Under the pieces are notes generated by a model. That model was given only the letters and a program-made list of their open reading frames with translations, did not search any database and was not told the DNA's origin. Both the position numbers and the translations under genes were made by a program. A DNA stretch of 64,000 bases from Bacteroidales bacterium (GTDB taxonomy: Bacteria; Bacteroidota; Bacteroidia; Bacteroidales; FEN-979): the NCBI GenBank assembly GCA_030681475.1, contig JAUXWT010000035.1:130428-194427 (forward strand). Direction: 5' to 3'. Positions 3,164-50,183 of the stretch are shown one piece after another. Positions within the stretch are counted from its first letter, which is position 1; each line of letters starts with the position of its first letter.

Positions 3164-3287
3164 CTCATATCTGATTCAGATCACAATATTAAGAAACATT
3201 ATTCAACCGGATGGTTTTTTCATCATCGCCGGGCATACTTAAAAATAGGATTTCCTGTAGCAAAAGGGCTGAGGGTGTATCAAGAGT

Positions 3288-3367
3288 TTCTTATTTACCG
3301 CTGAGACGCAGAGACGCAGAGAAATAAGAATTGATAATGATCCCTTTGCGCCTCTGCGCCTCTGCGG
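3288..3367. repeat. Solo inverted array of GAGACGCA-type 8-bp units
   Basis: The left arm 3298-3321 (GAGACGCA repeated) and the right arm 3345-3367 (reverse of GAGGCGCA repeated) form an imperfect hairpin, about 20 of 23 positions pairing. A perfect 9-bp inverted pair, TTCTTATTT at 3288-3296 and AAATAAGAA at 3322-3330, brackets the left arm. The units resemble the terminal repeats of the GxxExxY unit at 46246-46687, but only 23 bp lie between the arms and there is no gene inside. Confidence 0.8.
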
Positions 3368-3411
3368 CTATTATTAAATATTGCTTGTTAATACATCCAC
3401 ATGTATGTTGG

Positions 3412-42507: not shown

Positions 42508-43722
42508 ATGAAGCTCAGATTATCATTTCTCTTATTTTTTGCCCTGGCTATGACCCATACGTTTGGACAGGATAGCGAACCTTCGGATGGCAGCCGGGTT
42601 ATTTCGACTGCGGTACCATTTTTAACCATTTCGCCCGACGCTCGTTCAGGTGGTATGGGCGACCTTGGAGCTGCAACGACTCCCGATGCCTATTCCATTT
42701 TCTGGAATGCTGCAAAATATCCATTTATTGATAAAACATTTGGTTTTGGAATTGGTTATGTTCCGTGGCTGAGGAACCTTGTCAACGACATCGGACTTGC
42801 TTCAATTGTCGGATACGGAAAAATAGGAGACAAACAAGCCATCGCCGCATCACTCAGGTTTTTTTCGATGGGAGCAGTCATGTTTACCAACGATGTTGGC
42901 GATGAACTCGGTGAAGTAAAACCGAACGAATGGACCATTGACGCCACCTATTCACGGAAATTTTCAAGGGAGTTTGCAGGCGCCGTGACAGGCAGATTTA
43001 TATATTCAAACCTGGTGCCGGTTAACTATGGCCCCATCGAAGTCCGTCCCGGAACTTCTGTGGCTGCCGATGTGGCCGTTTATTATCATCATGAAATGGA
43101 GGTCAAGGGACTTTCCAACGCTTATCTCGACTTTGGGCTTAATATTTCCAATATAGGGGCGAAGATGTCATACAGCAGCACTTCAATTGTACGGGATTTT
43201 ATTCCGACCACATTACGCCTCGGACCCTCCTTTACCATGGATATTGATGACTTCAACAGAATTTCCATCTCGCTCGATCTGGCCAAGTTGCTTGTTCCGA
43301 CACCTCCTGTTTATGCCATTGATTCTTTAGGTAACACTTATACCGGCCCTGATGGCAGAAAGGTGATCGAAAAAGGCAAGGACCCCGATGTGTCGGTAGT
43401 TAAGGGTATGATCCAGTCATTTTATGATGCCCCGTACGGGTTCAAAGAGGAGTTGCAGGAAATCAACGTAACCCTTGCTGCCGAATATTGGTATAACAAG
43501 TTATTTTCGATCCGTGCCGGATATTTTTATGAGTCAAAATACAAGGGCGATCGCCAGTTTTTCACACTGGGAGCCGGTTTACGCTACAACGTATTCGGCC
43601 TCGATTTTTCATATCTGGTTCCCGTCAGGCAGAACAACCCGCTGCAAAACACATTGCAGTTTACCCTGCTCTTTAATTTCGACAACGTCAAAAAGCCCGA
43701 CAAACCAGGCGGCGCCAATTAG
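42508..43722 (+). CDS. porV: T9SS outer membrane protein PorV
   Basis: 404 residues with a signal peptide (about 1-20, ending TFGQD) and a FadL-like beta-barrel. Seen: ISTAVPFLTISPDARSGGMG and GDLGAATTPDAYSIFWN at the N-terminus, strongly typical of PorV (LptO), and a C-terminal barrel ending NTLQFTLLFNFD. PorV shuttles cargo from the translocon to the PorU sortase. Its position after the two PorU-like genes fits that role. Confidence 0.95.
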   Translation: MKLRLSFLLFFALAMTHTFGQDSEPSDGSRVISTAVPFLTISPDARSGGMGDLGAATTPDAYSIFWNAAKYPFIDKTFGFGIGYVPWLRNLVNDIGLASIVGYGKIGDKQAIAASLRFFSMGAVMFTNDVGDELGEVKPNEWTIDATYSRKFSREFAGAVTGRFIYSNLVPVNYGPIEVRPGTSVAADVAVYYHHEMEVKGLSNAYLDFGLNISNIGAKMSYSSTSIVRDFIPTTLRLGPSFTMDIDDFNRISISLDLAKLLVPTPPVYAIDSLGNTYTGPDGRKVIEKGKDPDVSVVKGMIQSFYDAPYGFKEELQEINVTLAAEYWYNKLFSIRAGYFYESKYKGDRQFFTLGAGLRYNVFGLDFSYLVPVRQNNPLQNTLQFTLLFNFDNVKKPDKPGGAN

Positions 43723-43752
43723 TTTCGGCACAATATTTTGTGCAGCAACCTG

Positions 43753-43776
43753 ATTTCACTATTTCGCCATTTCACT
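43753..43776. repeat. Three 8-bp units (ATTTCACT type) before ispF
   Basis: ATTTCACT, ATTTCGCC, ATTTCACT lie end to end, 4 bases before the ispF start codon. They are the reverse complement of the GCGAAAT-type units at 783-830, showing that one unit type occurs at distant loci. Confidence 0.8.
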
Positions 43777-43780
43777 AATT

Positions 43781-44257
43781 ATGATTCGCATCGGTTTCGG
43801 CTTCGACACGCACAAGCTTGACCCGGTTTGCGAATTCTGGCTGGGAGGAATCCTTATACCGCATATAAAAGGCGCCACTGGCCATTCCGATGCCGATACC
43901 CTGATTCATGCCATCATCGATGCATTGCTCGGAGCTGCCGGTTTAAGAGATATCGGAAACCAATTCCCTGATACTTCACCCGAATTCAAAGGAATAGACA
44001 GCAAAGCGCTACTTTCACGGACTATGGAGTTGATCAGCGCCAAAGGATATGTAATTGGCAATATTGACAGTACTATTGTCCTTCAGAACCCAAAGATTAG
44101 CGGTCATATCCCCGGCATGATCGAAGCCCTGACGGCGGTGATGAAAATCGGTTCAGATCAGCTTTCAATCAAGGCAAAAACCAGTGAAAAACTGGGATTT
44201 ATCGGCCGCGAAGAAGGCATCTCAGCCTATGCAACCGTGCTGTTACTGAAAGAATAA
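43781..44257 (+). CDS. ispF: 2-C-methyl-D-erythritol 2,4-cyclodiphosphate synthase
   Basis: 158-residue trimeric enzyme of the non-mevalonate isoprenoid pathway. Seen: GFGFDTHKL with the metal-binding DxH, GHSDADTLIHAIIDALLGAA, GNQFPDTSPEFKGIDSKALL, and the C-terminal KTSEKLGFIGREEGISAYAT. Identification is firm. It starts 58 bp after porV on the same strand and may be co-transcribed. Confidence 0.97.
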   Translation: MIRIGFGFDTHKLDPVCEFWLGGILIPHIKGATGHSDADTLIHAIIDALLGAAGLRDIGNQFPDTSPEFKGIDSKALLSRTMELISAKGYVIGNIDSTIVLQNPKISGHIPGMIEALTAVMKIGSDQLSIKAKTSEKLGFIGREEGISAYATVLLLKE

Positions 44258-44263
44258 AATTTG

Positions 44264-44286
44264 GATTTACGATTGGACGATTTACG
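44264..44286. repeat. 23-bp dispersed repeat, copy 1
   Basis: A 23-bp segment made of GATTTACG-type 7-8 bp units recurs in inverse orientation at 50186-50208 with 22 of 23 positions equal. Both copies sit just after stop codons of rightward genes. Confidence 0.75.
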
Positions 44287-44295
44287 CTTTACGAC

Positions 44296-44327
44296 TTGTC
44301 CCCCTGTCCCCCTGTCCCCCTGTCCCC
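44296..44327. repeat. Four 8-bp units (CTGTCCCC type)
   Basis: TTGTCCCC followed by three CTGTCCCC. The array ends at the stop codon of the leftward membrane protein gene (stop 44328-44330). The unit is the same type as the degenerate array inside the glycosyltransferase tail at 2228-2299. Confidence 0.9.
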
Positions 44328-46169
44328 CTACTTCCTGCCATAAACCTCCACCCTGAAATCATCTACCAGCATAGGTTTCCCCTGTGTATTCCAAATGTAA
44401 ACCTTGAGTATTCTTTCAGGATCCGAAATCTCAGGCAGCATCAGGGAGAATTTACATTGCCGCCATACTTTAGCATCCTCACGGGGAATATCGTTCAGCC
44501 GGAATCCATGCCACCAGTTTTCGCCGGGATGAATTGAATCCATGCTCAGAACCACCAAAGCGCCGTTGCTTGCTCCTGCCACGCTATCCCAGACCATCAG
44601 TTCTCCTGTAACAAAAAAACTATCTGGCAACCTGCCGAATTGGCCGGCTCTGACAGCGATCCCAGGACTATACTGATGCAGGGAATCAAGGTATCCGGCA
44701 TGACTGCCTGAAAACGTATAGGCTGTTTCAATAATTGCATTTGTACTCCAGTCACTTGAGGGTCGTTCAAAATCATTTTCATACACGTTGACAGGCTTTT
44801 GCAGGTTGATGTTGTAATTGGCGATCTCCTCATTGCCTCCAAGGCAATCGATCACGGCTGAATCGGTCCGCATGAAGATGTGATGGTATTTTATCGCATT
44901 CATGCTGTTGGGCTGTATCACCCGGTGGGTATATTGCCATGTTTGCACCAGGTTCAGGGCAACGAAAGGGGTAAGGCAAAGGATGATGAGAATAACGGCT
45001 GTTTTCGACCTGCCGATGTTCATCGCCATGGCCATCAGGATGGCGAAAATCCCATAAAAATCGATAAATGCGCGTAAGCCGAACCCATCACCGTAGTACC
45101 AGTTCCACCAGCTCGCAACAACATAGGCGCTTAATATCAAAAAGCCGGTGATGCTGAAAAACTGCATCCATTTCCGTCGTATCAGGGTGAATAACCCTAA
45201 TACGGAAACAAGCAGCAATGGCGTATATAAGAATAATCCTTTTCTATAGCCGAACAGTACATTGACGATCTCCGGGTTGCCGAAGTTAAAACCCTCATCC
45301 TGATAAGACCAGATTATAAAATGACCCGTCTGGATGTACCAGAGCAACCCCTGGATCGAAACAATTGTAAGGCAGATCGTTACAAATAAAAGAAGGGTGA
45401 GTAAATTTTTCCGGATAGACCTTAGAAAATGAAAAAGGCGGGGTTTGGTTTCCGCCAGAAAGGGGATTAAGATCACAATCAACATATTGGTTGGCCGGAT
45501 CAGGCATACCACCCCAAGGAAAAATCCCATACATCCGGCTGTTTTCATGTTCCAGCCCTGGATTCCCCTGATGGTGAACCACAGGAATCCATTAATGGCG
45601 AAAAAGGAAAAGACATGCGACATGGTCGGCTGCCACAAACTATAATAGAACAGGTTTGTGCCAAACAGGATCACGACAAGCGTGATCGCTGTTACTGAAG
45701 CCCTGATCCTCATGGATTCCAGGATCCGCTGAAGGAATATCAGACCCGAAAAGAGGTAAAACAGCGCCCCCAGTCCGGTAAAGATCTGGAAGAAAAAGGA
45801 AAATCCGTTGATCTCAACTCCGGCGATCCACGAAAACAGGGTGCCAAAGAGAAAAAACGGTAACAGCAGAAGCGCCTCTCCTGCAAAATATTTGTTGAAG
45901 GGATGATCGCCTGATTTCACAAGGTAACTGGGCTTGTAGTGCGGATATCCAAGGAGTTTGGCTTCCTTTTCAGCAACACTGGCAAAGGTTGGATCGTGGT
46001 CGAGAAGCATGGCCGGCAGATAAGCATAATACCCGCGTCCATCGCTGGTGATGATGTGTTTCCAGCCCGGCGCTCCGTCATTGAATACCCTGATGCTGAT
46101 AAAAAAGGCCAGCATAAAGCTGATCAGGCAAACCATCGTTCGCATATTCGTCATACGCATATTCGTCAT
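44328..46169 (-). CDS. Large polytopic membrane protein, GT-C-like
   Basis: 613 residues with about eleven hydrophobic segments and a soluble C-terminal domain of about 170 residues. The first loop DGRGYYAYLPAMLLDHD has the acidic residues seen in lipid-sugar-dependent glycosyltransferases of the GT-C fold (ArnT/PMT-like), but no precise family is recognised. The C-terminal part (VYENDFERPSSDW and following) is beta-rich, like a carbohydrate-binding module. The start is uncertain: a 15-bp direct repeat encodes MTNMR twice, and the ATG at 46139 or later may be used. It stands alone. Confidence 0.68.
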   Translation of the reverse strand: MTNMRMTNMRTMVCLISFMLAFFISIRVFNDGAPGWKHIITSDGRGYYAYLPAMLLDHDPTFASVAEKEAKLLGYPHYKPSYLVKSGDHPFNKYFAGEALLLLPFFLFGTLFSWIAGVEINGFSFFFQIFTGLGALFYLFSGLIFLQRILESMRIRASVTAITLVVILFGTNLFYYSLWQPTMSHVFSFFAINGFLWFTIRGIQGWNMKTAGCMGFFLGVVCLIRPTNMLIVILIPFLAETKPRLFHFLRSIRKNLLTLLLFVTICLTIVSIQGLLWYIQTGHFIIWSYQDEGFNFGNPEIVNVLFGYRKGLFLYTPLLLVSVLGLFTLIRRKWMQFFSITGFLILSAYVVASWWNWYYGDGFGLRAFIDFYGIFAILMAMAMNIGRSKTAVILIILCLTPFVALNLVQTWQYTHRVIQPNSMNAIKYHHIFMRTDSAVIDCLGGNEEIANYNINLQKPVNVYENDFERPSSDWSTNAIIETAYTFSGSHAGYLDSLHQYSPGIAVRAGQFGRLPDSFFVTGELMVWDSVAGASNGALVVLSMDSIHPGENWWHGFRLNDIPREDAKVWRQCKFSLMLPEISDPERILKVYIWNTQGKPMLVDDFRVEVYGRK

Positions 46170-46209
46170 CTCTTTTCTTGGCTAATTCGTTATTTGATGT
46201 GCCGGATTG
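46165..46209. repeat. Left outer repeats of the GxxExxY region
   Basis: A 15-bp direct repeat GTCATCTCTTTTCTT (46165-46179) is followed after 3 bases by a 27-bp inverted repeat (46183-46209). The right partners are the inverted repeat at 46795-46821 (26 of 27 equal) and the direct repeat at 46822-46836 (15 of 15). Confidence 0.85.
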
Positions 46210-46245
46210 ATTTTATTATAATTTCAGTGGCTCGTTTGATATAGG

Positions 46246-46687
46246 ATTTTTCACCGCGGAGACGCGGAGACGCAGAGATTAAAAATTGTTCACATACCGT
46301 TTGAATCCATTTTTCAAGACACCAACATTAAAATTAACCAGAAATCCCAGTTTCTTATTGGTTAACTTCAGATAGGAAATTAATTGAGCTTCGTAAACAG
46401 GATGCATTATTTCAGCGGATTTTAATTCAAGGATTATTTCATTTTCAACAAGAATATCAACTTTAAGTTCTCGTGATAACTCGTATCCCTTATACAGCAA
46501 GGATATGGGAACCTGATTTATAGCCATTACAGTTCGTAATTCAATTTCTTTCATTAGGCATTGTTCATAAATTGATTCAAGAAGACCTGGCCCCATGATC
46601 TTATGCACGGTGATGCACGCATCGAGAATTACCCCCGAAATTTTGTTAATAAATCCTCTGCGTCTCCGCGTCTCCGCGGTGAAAAAT
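46246..46687. mobile_element. 442-bp unit with perfect 32-bp terminal inverted repeats around a GxxExxY gene
   Basis: The arms 46246-46277 and 46656-46687 are exact reverse complements of each other over 32 bp. Each holds CACCGCGGAGACGCGGAGAC, built of 8-bp GAGACGC-type units. The pair encloses nearly the whole GxxExxY gene: its stop is one base inside the left arm and its ATG just outside the right arm. No transposase is encoded. Whether it moves is inference. The same kind of unit, without a gene, occurs at 3288-3367. Outer inverted and direct repeats at 46165-46209 and 46795-46836 bracket it. Confidence 0.6.
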
Positions 46688-46692
46688 TGCAT
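46279..46692 (-). CDS. GxxExxY family protein
   Basis: 137-residue protein. The family motif is seen in GPGLLESIYEQCL (about residues 34-46), followed by IELRTVMAINQVPISLLYKG and VDILVENEIILELKSAE, a pattern resembling PD-(D/E)XK nuclease folds (acidic D, E-x-K). Function is not established, but nuclease-like activity is suggested by that pattern. The first 12 codons (MQFFTAETRRRR) come from the terminal inverted repeat and its immediate flank. No other ATG lies in between, so repeat and gene are physically fused. Confidence 0.85.
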   Translation of the reverse strand: MQFFTAETRRRRGFINKISGVILDACITVHKIMGPGLLESIYEQCLMKEIELRTVMAINQVPISLLYKGYELSRELKVDILVENEIILELKSAEIMHPVYEAQLISYLKLTNKKLGFLVNFNVGVLKNGFKRYVNNF

Positions 46693-46794
46693 TTTTTTCC
46701 ACTAAGGCATGAACCACCGAATACCTGCATCTATTTCTCTCTAACCTGCACTCATTGTTTAACATCGTTTCTGTCCAGTTTCAAAGGACATCAC

Positions 46795-46836
46795 CAATCC
46801 GGCACATCAAATAACGGATTAGTCATCTCTTTTCTT
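46795..46836. repeat. Right outer repeats of the GxxExxY region
   Basis: A 27-bp inverted repeat (46795-46821, 26 of 27 pairs with 46183-46209) is directly followed by GTCATCTCTTTTCTT (46822-46836), an exact direct repeat of 46165-46179. Together they could mark the ends of an older 640-bp insertion with a 15-bp target duplication. Confidence 0.85.
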
Positions 46837-46864
46837 ACGTGCTTCAAATTTAGAAAAGATACCA

Positions 46865-46896
46865 TTTGGTAGTATGATTAATTTTTCCTAATTTTG
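46865..46896 (+). promoter_or_regulatory. Bacteroidota promoter for the rpsF operon
   Basis: TTTG at 46865-46868 and TAATTTTG at 46889-46896 are separated by 20 bp, an exact consensus match. The rpsF start follows 44 bases downstream. Confidence 0.78.
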
Positions 46897-46940
46897 CAGC
46901 CCTTATGAAAAAACCATATATTAATTAAATTCAACGAGAA

Positions 46941-47294
46941 ATGTTAAAACAGTACGAAACCGTTTTCATTATGACTCCCGTTTTGTCTGATGAACAGATG
47001 AAGGAAACGGTAGATAAGTATCAGAAATTCCTCGTCAGCAAAGGCGCTGAGATAGTTCACGAGGAGCATTGGGGATTGCGAAAACTCGCCTATCCCATCC
47101 AGAAAAAGGCAACCGGATTCTATCATTTGATCGAGTTCAAGGCTGAACCGACCCTGATCAGGGAGTGGGAAGTGACCTTTAAACGTGATGAGCGGATACT
47201 CCGCTTTTTAACGGTAGTTTTTGATAAGCACATGCTTGCCTACAGCGAGAAGAAACGTGCGAGGTCTAAGGCTGCAAAGGAAGAAAAAGAGTAG
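46941..47294 (+). CDS. rpsF: 30S ribosomal protein S6
   Basis: 117 residues, normal length. Seen: YETVFIMTPVLSDEQMKETV at the N-terminus, WGLRKLAYPIQKKATGFYHL in the middle, and a lysine/arginine-rich tail ending KAAKEEKE. It binds S18 and the central domain of 16S rRNA. It is first in the rpsF-rpsR-rplI operon. Confidence 0.97.
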   Translation: MLKQYETVFIMTPVLSDEQMKETVDKYQKFLVSKGAEIVHEEHWGLRKLAYPIQKKATGFYHLIEFKAEPTLIREWEVTFKRDERILRFLTVVFDKHMLAYSEKKRARSKAAKEEKE

Positions 47295-47318
47295 TAACCA
47301 TCCAAAAACTGTTTGATC

Positions 47319-47591
47319 ATGGCAACACAACAACAAGGTGAAATAAAGTATCTGACCCCGATCGCGGTCGATACCAAGAGAAAAAAATATTGCCGTTTCA
47401 AGAAAAGCGGCATCAAGTACATCGACTTTAAGGACGCTGACTTTCTGCTTAAGTTCGTCAACGAACAAGGCAAGCTGCTTCCACGCCGTATTACCGGTAC
47501 ATCCACGAAGTATCAGCGGAAAGTGGCACAGGCAGTTAAACGGGCCAGGCACATTGCCCTCATGCCCTATGTTGGTGATTTATTAAAATAA
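47319..47591 (+). CDS. rpsR: 30S ribosomal protein S18
   Basis: 90 residues from the ATG at 47319 (a TTG two codons earlier is not needed). Seen: [40 protein letters not shown] and [12 protein letters not shown], the S18 core. It lies 24 bp after rpsF. Confidence 0.97.
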
Positions 47592-47596
47592 GGAGG
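47591..47596 (+). promoter_or_regulatory. Strong Shine-Dalgarno site before rplI
   Basis: AGGAGG ends 8 bases before the ATG at 47605 and overlaps the last base of the rpsR stop. Canonical sites are uncommon in Bacteroidota, so this one is noteworthy. Confidence 0.8.
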
Positions 47597-47604
47597 CACG
47601 AACC

Positions 47605-48054
47605 ATGGAAGTAATTTTAAAACAAGACGTCCTCAACCTGGGCTATACGAACGAAAAGGTAAATGTAAAACCCGGTTATGCCAGGAACTATCTCATCCCT
47701 CAGGGTTATGCCATCCTGGCCACCGAGTCAAATAAAAAAGTGCTTGCGGAAACGCTGAAGCAAAAAGCGCATAAGGAGGCCAAGATCAGGAGATCGGCGG
47801 AAGATCTTTCGGACGGGTTGAAAAACCTGGTCGTAAAGATCGGCGCAAAAGCGGCAGAGAGCGGCAAGATATTCGGATCGGTGAATGCCATCCAGGTCGC
47901 ACAAGCTTTGAAAGACCAGTTCGATTTCGATGTTGACCGGAAAAAAATCCATGTTGATCACGAACATATTAAAGAACTTGGAACCTATAAAGCAAGGGTC
48001 CATCTGCATAAAGATGTTCAGGTTGAGATCACACTCGAGGTTTTTGCCGAATAA
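47605..48054 (+). CDS. rplI: 50S ribosomal protein L9
   Basis: 149 residues, normal length. The N-terminal EVILKQDVLNLGYTNEKVNV and KPGYARNYLIPQGYAILATE, a long central helix, and the C-terminal HEHIKELGTYKARVHLHKDV identify L9. It ends the operon; an intrinsic terminator follows 25 bp downstream. Confidence 0.97.
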   Translation: MEVILKQDVLNLGYTNEKVNVKPGYARNYLIPQGYAILATESNKKVLAETLKQKAHKEAKIRRSAEDLSDGLKNLVVKIGAKAAESGKIFGSVNAIQVAQALKDQFDFDVDRKKIHVDHEHIKELGTYKARVHLHKDVQVEITLEVFAE

Positions 48055-48079
48055 CGCTATTTTTAAAATTTGTAATTTT

Positions 48080-48111
48080 ATCCCGGAAACCAAAATTTCC
48101 GGGATTTTTTT
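48080..48111 (+). terminator. Intrinsic terminator of the rpsF operon
   Basis: A 10-bp stem ATCCCGGAAA (48080-48089) and TTTCCGGGAT (48096-48105), 6-base loop, then seven T (48105-48111). The ATG of the next gene follows at 48112 without a spacer. Confidence 0.9.
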
Positions 48112-48897
48112 ATGCTGTCAAAAAGCCGGATCAAACATATAACCTCTCTCAAAGTAAAGAAGTTCCGCGATGAACACAATCAGTTTATTGCCGAAGGAGA
48201 AAAGCTGGTGATGGATCTGGCAGCCGGTAAATTCACCATGGCCGGAATCTATGCCTCCCCAGAGTGGATCGATTCAAACACCGGTTTGATCCGGTCCAAA
48301 AGCGCTCCTGTTTTTGAAACATCTCTTCCTGAGATGACTCGGATCACAGCGTTGTCAAGCCCCAGCCCGGTATTGGCCGTCATCAACATCCCTGATCCGG
48401 TTTTCACCATTTCGCCATCTCACGATTTTACCAAGTCCCTTTCGCTCGCGCTCGACGATATCCGTGACCCGGGCAACCTTGGTACCATCATCCGCATTGC
48501 AGACTGGTTCGGCATTGAAAATATATTATGTTCGGAAAGCTGTGTGGATATTTATAACCCTAAGGTAGTGCAGGCCTCCATGGGCTCTATTGCAAGGGTC
48601 AACATGGTCAGTTGCAACCTGCCAGAAAAGCTGGCCGCGCTCCCGGGATGTCCGGTATATGGCGCTTTCCTCGAGGGGGATTCGATATTCACGCAAACGT
48701 TTGATGATCATGGCATCATTGTGATCGGGAACGAGTCGCATGGCATTTCGCCTGAACTTGTTCCATTCATCACCAGAAAGCTCTTTATCCCATCCTTCGG
48801 GTCATCAGAGTCCGGAAAAGCCGAGTCGCTCAACGCTTCAATTGCCACAGCCATCATTTGTGCTGAATTCCGCAGAAATCAACAAAAAATACAATGA
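48112..48897 (+). CDS. TrmH/SpoU family RNA 2'-O-methyltransferase
   Basis: 261 residues. It methylates ribose in tRNA or rRNA using S-adenosylmethionine. Seen: an N-terminal KIKHITSLKVKKFRDEHNQF-type RNA-binding segment, LALDDIRDPGNLGTIIRIAD (motif 1), IVIGNESHGISPEL (motif 2), SLNASIATAIICAEF (motif 3 of the knot fold). The target site is unknown. The start codon touches the preceding terminator. An 8-bp-type repeat (48402-48425) encodes about eight residues, FTISPSHD, just before motif 1. It overlaps the next gene by 4 bases (ATGA). Confidence 0.9.
   Translation: MLSKSRIKHITSLKVKKFRDEHNQFIAEGEKLVMDLAAGKFTMAGIYASPEWIDSNTGLIRSKSAPVFETSLPEMTRITALSSPSPVLAVINIPDPVFTISPSHDFTKSLSLALDDIRDPGNLGTIIRIADWFGIENILCSESCVDIYNPKVVQASMGSIARVNMVSCNLPEKLAALPGCPVYGAFLEGDSIFTQTFDDHGIIVIGNESHGISPELVPFITRKLFIPSFGSSESGKAESLNASIATAIICAEFRRNQQKIQ
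48402..48425. repeat. Three 8-bp units inside the SpoU gene
   Basis: TTTCACCA, TTTCGCCA, TCTCACGA: three 8-bp units of the same type as at 43753-43776 and 783-830, here in coding sequence between the RNA-binding and catalytic domains. 24 bp equals eight codons, so the frame is kept. Confidence 0.6.
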
Positions 48898-50183
48898 CTT
48901 TTTCCAAAACCTTGATCATACGTTCGGCCTTTAGCTTCCTGTTGGTTCTTTCGGCCCTTGGATGCCTTGCCGCTGATTTTCCGAATGAGAACATCTGCTA
49001 TGATCCTTCAATAAAAACGATACAGGTCTTCAAAGAGGGATTTGAATTGTCGTCACCGGTTATTCAATTGAACTCCACAGACAGGCTCTCTGTCCAGTTC
49101 GATGACCTTGATGCCTTTATAAAGAGGTATAAGTTTACAATACTGCACTGTGAATCGGACTGGCAGACTTCGACCGACCTGACTGTTTCAGATTATATCG
49201 ATGGTTTCAGGGAGGAGAATATTGATCAGTACGATTATTCATATAGTACGACCGTGAAATATACCCATTTCAAAGCAACATTCCCGACCCAAAACATGAG
49301 GCCCAGGCTCTCGGGAAATTATATGCTCGTTGTTTATGAAGATGATCCGTCGCAATTGGCCTTTACAGCAAGATTCATGGTAACAGAGGCTTCACCGCTG
49401 GCCATCACGGGCAGGGTAGTACAGAGTTCACTGATGGCTGAACGGTCAACACGACAGCAGATCGACTTTGCGATCCGGTTAAATGGGTTCCAGGTGCTGG
49501 ATGTCGGGCGCGAAATGAAGGTCGTCCTGATGCAAAATGGCCGTACCGATAATCTGCTCCGGTTGTCGCGACCCCGTTTTGCCCGGACCGATGAACTTGA
49601 TTACCGTTATGATGAATCAATATCCTTCAGCGGTGGCAACCAGTTCCGGAATTTTGATATTAAAAGTCTGCAGTACCAGTCTGAACATATTGCAAGAATT
49701 GATTATGACACTTCCAACCAGGTGTATCTGGTTCCGGACCAGCCCCGTACTTTCAAGCAATACGCTTATGAGAAGGACCTCAACGGACGGTTTTTTATTA
49801 AAAATGAGGACCACGCCGATAACAGCAGCATAGAAGCGGATTATGCATGGGTCCATTTCTTTTTGCCCTATCCTGTGATATTAAAATCCGGCACTTTTCA
49901 TGTATTGGGTGAACTTACCTCCTGGCAATTGAACGACGCCAGCAGGATGTTTTTCAACCCCAGGCATGGAGGATATGAGCTCAACCTTTTTCTGAAACAA
50001 GGCTACTACAACTATATGTACGTAATGAAGGAAAATGGAAAATCGTATGGAGATGAATCGCTGATCGAAGGAAACCACTGGGAAGCGGAAAACGAATATA
50101 CCATTTTCGTTTACTTTCGTGAAACCGGTTCATTGTATGATCGGTTGCTCGCCGTAAGCATCCTCAACTCCATCCAACCCTAA
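48894..50183 (+). CDS. T9SS plug protein, DUF5103 family
   Basis: 429 residues with a signal peptide (about 1-27, ending LGCLAAD). Seen: ICYDPSIKTIQVFKEGFELS, FKFTILHCESDW-like KFTILHCESDWQTSTDL, and a C-terminal domain with WVHFFLPYPVILKSGTFHVL. These match the DUF5103 family, now named T9SS plug protein because the Flavobacterium homologue closes the periplasmic side of the T9SS channel. It is translationally coupled to the SpoU gene. It adds a sixth T9SS-related gene to the window outside the main cluster. Confidence 0.87.
   Translation: MTFSKTLIIRSAFSFLLVLSALGCLAADFPNENICYDPSIKTIQVFKEGFELSSPVIQLNSTDRLSVQFDDLDAFIKRYKFTILHCESDWQTSTDLTVSDYIDGFREENIDQYDYSYSTTVKYTHFKATFPTQNMRPRLSGNYMLVVYEDDPSQLAFTARFMVTEASPLAITGRVVQSSLMAERSTRQQIDFAIRLNGFQVLDVGREMKVVLMQNGRTDNLLRLSRPRFARTDELDYRYDESISFSGGNQFRNFDIKSLQYQSEHIARIDYDTSNQVYLVPDQPRTFKQYAYEKDLNGRFFIKNEDHADNSSIEADYAWVHFFLPYPVILKSGTFHVLGELTSWQLNDASRMFFNPRHGGYELNLFLKQGYYNYMYVMKENGKSYGDESLIEGNHWEAENEYTIFVYFRETGSLYDRLLAVSILNSIQP

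Follow-up and report, generated by a model that had tools for sequence, protein, structure and literature searches.

Architecture of the locus and its protein

We analysed a 64,000-nucleotide stretch of DNA from a Bacteroidales bacterium (assembly GCA_030681475.1, contig JAUXWT010000035.1, positions 130,428 to 194,427), hereafter the window. Upstream of rpsF, the window contains one small gene of the GxxExxY family, which is enclosed by two layers of inverted repeats: the gene sits between inverted arrays of a short unit, and this inner layer lies within an outer inverted-repeat unit. The inner layer is bounded by an exact 32-bp inverted repeat, with the left arm at 46246–46277 (plus strand) and the right arm at 46656–46687 (minus strand), as reported in a preliminary description made from the letters alone. 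That description did not see that the arms are arrays. Each arm consists of three copies of one 8-bp unit (CGCGGAGA / CGCAGAGA); the left arm reads ACC and then CGCGGAGA-CGCGGAGA-CGCAGAG. More generally, the inner arrays repeat one short unit, CRCNRAG, which is ∼8 bp in length (8–10 bp across loci).

The sole gene between the inner arms occupies 46279–46692 on the minus strand and encodes a protein of 137 residues. The right arm, the inverted copy of the left one, overlaps the gene start and provides its first codons (MQFFTAETRRRRG...), as had been claimed; these codons lie ahead of the conserved domain, the Pfam and NCBIfam matches of the protein beginning at residues 17–18. The outer inverted pair was described as 27 bp with 26 matches. 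It is present and extends to 31 nt at 94% identity, from 46179–46209 (plus strand) to 46795–46825 (minus strand), and we took 46180–46821 as the outer unit. Two identical 15-bp direct repeats, also noted before, lie at its ends (46165–46179 and 46822–46836). Relatives of the left end of the outer repeat are found at C65:33120 and C3:37541 in the same genome, and one relative of the right end at C23:20512. A near-identical 15-bp tandem duplication (46136–46165) lies where the upstream gene begins and adjoins the insertion site discussed below. Positions 43000–50000 gave no match to known RNA in an Rfam scan.

In profile searches, the gene between the arms matched only TIGR04256 (125.5 bits, cut-off 35) and PF13366 (122.6 bits, cut-off 22), which places its product in the GxxExxY family. 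We aligned 52 sequences, namely the window protein, three copies from its own genome and 48 of the 80 relatives introduced below; L109 and L110, which contain stop codons, and L100, L120, L122, L126 and L128 were left out. E39, D79, E89, K91 and Q103 are invariant in the alignment and Y107 is nearly so. The AlphaFold model has a pLDDT (predicted local distance difference test score) of 94.3. The closest solved structure is SSO0001, which we take to be a Cas4 protein (Foldseek E-value 5.5e-3, probability 1.00; VIA Z 9.0, the other VIA rows being under Z 8). Lambda exonuclease is also among the top solved matches of Foldseek, none of which had an E-value of ≤0.001; a sequence search of solved structures with the family profile returned none. 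Judged by the modelled fold and the catalytic D and E-x-K residues, the protein belongs to the PD-(D/E)XK superfamily and is very probably an active nuclease of the Cas4/RecB type. Nine pairs of low protein divergence were compared among relatives of the gene. Six are saturated, whereas dS could be measured in three, for which the ratio of nonsynonymous to synonymous substitution (dN/dS) is 0.09, 0.09 and 0.12; at the sequence level, this supports purifying selection in these relatives.

Two further roles were considered for the protein and set aside. For a defence role, PADLOC gave weak matches only, with a candidate family scoring best (E 6.1e-4) and Cas4 at E 0.017. For phage or plasmid cargo, there was no match in 50,697 phage records, and there were 8 in 72,556 plasmid records and 6 confirmed in viral contigs. 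Of the plasmid records, that of Bacteroides finegoldii was inspected; the genes surrounding the match include thrA and radA, and arms are visible by eye. PHROGs gave one weak match of unknown function.

Insertion at this site and relatives in the genome and genus

We compared 18 other genomes of this genus. A match to the neighbouring rpsF is present in 15, and in 11 of the 15 it adjoins the other neighbour (44328–46169) as well. The unit is absent from all 11, whose intergenic regions are ∼110–190 bp in length, compared to 771 bp in the window. After removal of 46180–46821 and one copy of the direct repeat, the window region resembles those of the congeners. Because the congeneric regions are without the unit and the excised region resembles them, the sequence comparison indicates that the outer-repeat unit was inserted at this site; the 15-bp duplication was probably made by that insertion.

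The unit of the arms recurs in the same genome. One strict 17-base pattern, which corresponds to two units, has 39 matches compared to 0 for the reversed pattern used as control; one looser 16-base pattern, with up to two mismatches allowed, has 103 matches (22 of them exact) compared to 52 in the control. The arm repeat is more than chance, since its unit recurs in the genome. The genome also contains 10 GxxExxY matches, 9 of which are above the cut-off. By eye, unit arrays are present on at least one side in all 10 loci and on both sides in 9. Their units belong to several variants: CGCGGAGA in the window and at C65:33229, CACGAAG at four loci, the CACGAAGGACACAAAG type, GGCACAATAG, the AACGCAGATGA type and CCACAGAGA. 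Three CACGAAG loci have one internal gene deletion in common, and more shortened copies are found elsewhere in the genome; such deleted and shortened copies are what spread after deletion would look like. The earlier suggestion of a small mobile unit, or of one unit inside another, carrying a nuclease-like gene is thus supported by the empty site in all 11 congeners and by the related units elsewhere in the genome.

The genome also contains dispersed palindromes of the window's variant that lack a gene. One of them (L037) is in the window itself, at 3271–3398 with approximate outer limits, its arrays lying at about 3297–3321 and 3344–3368; it is located within another, imperfect outer inverted repeat. 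The same repeat, GAGGGTGTCTCAAAAG, also encloses the gene-less palindromes L022, L023, L026, L036 and L046, as if a second family of miniature inverted-repeat transposable elements (MITEs) carried the same arrays. At L020 and L014, units lie within or beside other arrays.

We compared six further sites of this genome with the congeners. Eight flank pieces were searched, two of which (L010 and L013) matched only the own genome; of the 61 congeneric loci inspected, both flanks are present in 45. Unit pairs are lacking in 40 of the 45, and the remaining five have pairs that are always of another variant than that of the own genome. At the site of L011, where the own genome has one GGCACAATAG unit with gene, one congener holds a CACGAAG unit with GxxExxY gene, the second holds two CACGAAG units with GxxExxY gene in tandem, the third has a GxxExxY gene and no recognised unit pairs, and the fourth has only a short array fragment. 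In another congener, the left neighbour of L009 has a GxxExxY gene beside it that bears a different array on one of its sides; the right flank of this locus could not be located. In all, three orthologous intergenic sites have differing variants or genes among congeners (L282, L284 and L287 at the L011 site; L253 and L279 at the L009 site; L303 at the L026 site). Therefore, some sites look like repeated targets. None of the congeneric sites compared has a palindrome in one congener and the identical palindrome plus gene in another.

Recurrence of gene and arrays across phyla

To follow the arrays further, we used the best 80 of 567 confirmed GxxExxY loci from contigs with one genome per species, a set that favours relatives of the window protein. 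Flanks were analysed for 76 of them, four being too near contig ends. Adjacent CRCNRAG units were found in at least one flank of 66 of the 76 loci, whereas 275 control windows taken from these loci contained 16 pairs; inward-pointing unit pairs occur on both sides in 35. The unit rule behind these counts misses deviating variants such as GGCACAATAG, and several of the 10 loci without pairs do carry arrays of deviating units by eye (L103, L112 and L120). When compared with pairs taken from mismatched loci, a null that the shared motif itself pushes upwards, the match between left arm and reversed right arm exceeds 95% of the pairs in 48 of the 76 loci and 99% in 31.

The loci are of two layouts. 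In the layout of the window, the gene has one arm on each side, the two arms forming a single palindrome around it. In the other, the flanks also match in direct orientation above 99% of mismatched pairs, which was observed in 23 of the 76 loci; 12 of these score at least 80, and in about 9 of the 12 the direct copies flanking the gene amount, by eye, to a complete or almost complete palindrome each (L109, L126, L049, L099, L111, L098, L112, L105 and L079). This direct-copy layout resembles a gene for a REP-associated tyrosine transposase (RAYT) between dimers of repetitive extragenic palindromic (REP) sequences, or a gene that entered and doubled one palindrome.

Arrays that neighbour each other are inverted. 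Among the matches listed for four of the five carrier genomes with listed positions, all 34 neighbouring matches (≤160 bp apart) are in inverted orientation, ACC being outermost in 28 of them and innermost in 6. We also looked for short target duplications at the array edges. In 102 loci, direct repeats at the arm edges have a mean of 4.39 compared to 4.52 for mismatched pairs, and the longest is 7 bp, none reaching 8 bp; the test covers 25 bp outside the arms and is blind to duplications lying farther out, such as the 15-bp pair of the window. Within this range, short duplications at the array edges are not above chance in these loci, which argues against ordinary DDE transposition with ends at the arms.

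Genes and arrays occur together. In 296 genomes drawn evenly from the phylum of the window, GxxExxY matches were found in 152, above the cut-off in 149. The strict pattern has 600 matches in the 152 carriers (11 for the reversed pattern) compared to 23 in the 144 non-carriers (17 for the reversed pattern), so the non-carriers are at background level. At least two matches are present in 51 of the 152 carriers compared to 2 of the 144 non-carriers; permutation within families yielded 42.5 on average and at most 50 in 5000 rounds. Gene count and pattern count are correlated, with a Spearman coefficient of 0.48 overall and 0.40 among the carriers of this phylum. In 37 carrier genomes of other groups, the pattern has 1111 matches compared to 6 for the control, and 30 of the 37 have at least two. 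The densest genome is that of L058, a metagenome-assembled genome of the Verrucomicrobiales (G336), with 406 strict matches in ∼3 Mb and none for the reversed control.

In the phylum of the cyanobacterium L113, 40 of 194 genomes have a GxxExxY match, 38 above the cut-off. The 40 genomes with the gene contain 1466 pattern matches (control 8), and the 154 without it contain 243 (control 18). Among genomes of at least 4 Mb, two or more matches are found in 28 of 37 with the gene and in 8 of 29 without it (Fisher p 1.5e-4). The cyanobacteria follow the trend, with clear exceptions that are taken up below.

The unit variants were then placed on one protein tree of 154 out of 155 loci. The 123 loci with at least two clustered units entered the unit tests; they come from 16 named phyla, including archaea, with 55 of the 123 lacking a name. 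The CGC/CAC type of the unit changes 26 times on the tree, whereas in 500 shuffles it changes 41.2 times on average and never fewer than 32 times. For the next two bases of the unit, there are 42 changes compared to a shuffled mean of 57.8 and minimum of 50. When shuffling was confined to quintiles of guanine-plus-cytosine (GC) content, none of 500 shuffles reached the observed counts. By these counts, the unit variants follow the GxxExxY protein tree, also within GC classes.

Proposed mobility of the unit and comparison with known systems

Comparison of genomes supports insertion here and elsewhere, the dispersal of copies, the co-occurrence of gene and arrays and the tracking of the protein tree by the variants. 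With a little more confidence than doubt, we propose that the inner unit (array, GxxExxY gene and inverted array) is a minimal mobile element driven by its nuclease. The Cas4/RecB-type PD-(D/E)XK nuclease, the only protein of the unit, would recognise the periodic CRCNRAG arrays, probably as hairpins or single strands, and would cut at them. Repair or replication may then spread gene-bearing units and gene-less arrays, as RAYT enzymes are thought to spread REPINs, the inverted REP pairs. A gene between two palindromes of the same direction would fit insertion at a pre-existing palindrome. In the window, the inner unit may have been carried by, or may have landed in, the larger inverted-repeat unit that was inserted upstream of rpsF with a 15-bp duplication. 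We infer the recognition, cutting and copying of arrays, and the driving role of the nuclease; an array-recognising nuclease is favoured because direct repeats at the arm edges are at chance level and neighbouring arrays are inverted as in REPINs. Help in trans, which the preliminary description had proposed from the lack of a transposase, may apply to the outer layer. For the inner layer it is not supported, given the link between GxxExxY and arrays across phyla and genomes, and the nuclease itself is the likelier partner in mobility.

A broader statement is offered tentatively, with doubt slightly ahead of confidence: GxxExxY proteins would be the dedicated mobility enzymes of palindromic arrays that cross phyla in bacteria and archaea; each element would be spread by its one small Cas4-type PD-(D/E)XK nuclease working at its own arrays, with no HUH or DDE transposase, and would leave gene-less arrays in its carriers.

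Several observations weigh against the proposed role of the nuclease. The window unit and several gene-less arrays are inside outer inverted repeats and could be moved by another enzyme. No strict-pattern match was found in 81 of the 152 carriers of the window's phylum, and in several families no carrier has any; since many carriers and whole families are without matches, the strict pattern measures only part of the variants. The agreement of flank units with the other arrays of their own genome, taken from the listed pattern positions, is moderate. In this test, 29 of 40 flank stretches were used and 11 left out; 9 had no clustered units, and the own genome ranked on average 5.4 of 17 for the remaining 20 loci, first in 6 and poorly in several multi-gene genomes. 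Nine gene-less cyanobacterial genomes have 3–105 matches (G563 105, G469 50, G495 30, G531 23 and five with 3–7). A PF13366 search in eight of the nine (G501, with 3 matches, was left out) gave one borderline match of 22 bits, in G563. At 20 sites in G438, G495, G490 and G377, we observed one-direction arrays, no palindromes and no remnant of GxxExxY. In G495, the gene may be lost to assembly because several matches are near contig ends; such loss is unlikely in G438, where the matches sit on one contig of 4.87 Mb. Therefore, arrays can outlive the gene or spread otherwise.

Four other explanations were weighed. GxxExxY could be the cargo of MITE-like units that are moved in trans by unrelated transposases acting on outer repeats, the arrays being internal hairpins. 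The window unit, with its outer inverted repeats and 15-bp direct duplication, and the gene-less palindromes within the GAGGGTGTCTCAAAAG repeat are what such cargo would look like. However, it is the array motif, not the outer repeats, that is common to GxxExxY loci across phyla and that follows the gene from genome to genome and along the protein tree, and direct repeats at the arm edges are at chance level in the 102 loci (duplications more than 25 bp outside being missed). We therefore regard this passenger role as unlikely.

Slightly less probable still is homing, in which the nuclease cuts gene-less palindromes and repair copies the gene in, the arrays being targets with a spread of their own. 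The window gene does occupy the loop position of a palindrome, direct array copies flank the gene in 23 of the 76 loci, with the whole palindrome in about 9 as if it had been entered, and units lie within or beside other arrays (L020 and L014). Homing nevertheless leaves unexplained both the spread of gene-less arrays and the background level in non-carriers of the window's phylum, and we found no site at which one congener has the palindrome alone and another has it together with the gene.

That the arrays are regulatory or terminator hairpins for the gene, with dispersed copies being unrelated look-alikes of low complexity, is very improbable: although arm sequence and first codons overlap in the gene of the window, the reversed-pattern controls are near zero, the dispersed copies are in inverted pairs, and copies at the same site differ between congeners. 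A fixed local feature without mobility, to which the preliminary description would have turned for an arm found only here and orthologous loci all alike, can practically be dismissed, since the arm unit recurs in the genome, the congeneric sites differ, and the site is empty in all 11 congeners with both neighbours.

The proposed nuclease-driven unit would seem to be a tiny mobile element of a kind not described before. Our literature search, whose coverage mostly lay outside subscription journals and preprints, found no description of a link between such arrays and GxxExxY; the term is rare in the literature searched despite the genes being common. One paper mentions GxxExxY in passing as a domain at the expected position of cas4 (PMC8934634). 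One of the 17-mers of the array pattern occurs in a paper on environmental DNA of fish. If the link between gene and arrays is causal, it would give a role to the widespread GxxExxY family and explain a large class of intergenic repeats. The proposal can be tested directly, with one small protein and one short motif.

Like MITEs and other non-autonomous derivatives of DDE elements, the units have terminal inverted repeats, multiple copies and internal deletions, and the outer unit of the window has a direct duplication as well. Unlike them, the inner unit encodes its own conserved protein, and direct repeats of short length at its arm edges do not exceed chance in the range covered; the unit is not simply a MITE because the gene for this protein tracks the arrays across phyla. 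With Cas4, RecB and lambda exonuclease, the protein shares fold and catalytic residues, but it is a stand-alone protein of 137 residues in a repeat unit, with no neighbours of clustered regularly interspaced short palindromic repeats (CRISPR) or repair systems seen. Rpn recombination-promoting nucleases, TnsA and PD-(D/E)XK homing endonucleases are mobility-linked members of the same superfamily and belong to families different from GxxExxY; to our knowledge, none of them is flanked by such arrays.

The closest likeness in arrangement is to REP/RAYT systems (REPtrons and TIRtrons). As set out in one account, REP sequences and REPINs are short intergenic palindromes that occur in many copies and are frequently paired in inverted orientation; RAYT genes encode a small DNA-cutting enzyme and have single or dimeric repeats at their flanks; differing repeat variants go with differing genes in one genome, and some genomes have repeats without the gene (PMC3733652). 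The units described here share dispersed short palindromes, many of them inverted pairs, a gene flanked by repeats, several variants per genome and some gene-less genomes with repeats. Their enzyme is of the PD-(D/E)XK type, however, and the unit contains no gene for an HUH/Y1 transposase, by which a REPtron is recognised; their repeat is an array of one 8–10 bp unit, CRCNRAG, that is recognisable across phyla. The system is not REP/RAYT proper because no tyrosine transposase lies between the repeats. By analogy, we read it as a REPIN/RAYT-like system in which a Cas4-like nuclease would replace the HUH transposase; if the link between gene and arrays is causal, it would be an independent arrangement of the REPIN/RAYT type with an unrelated enzyme.

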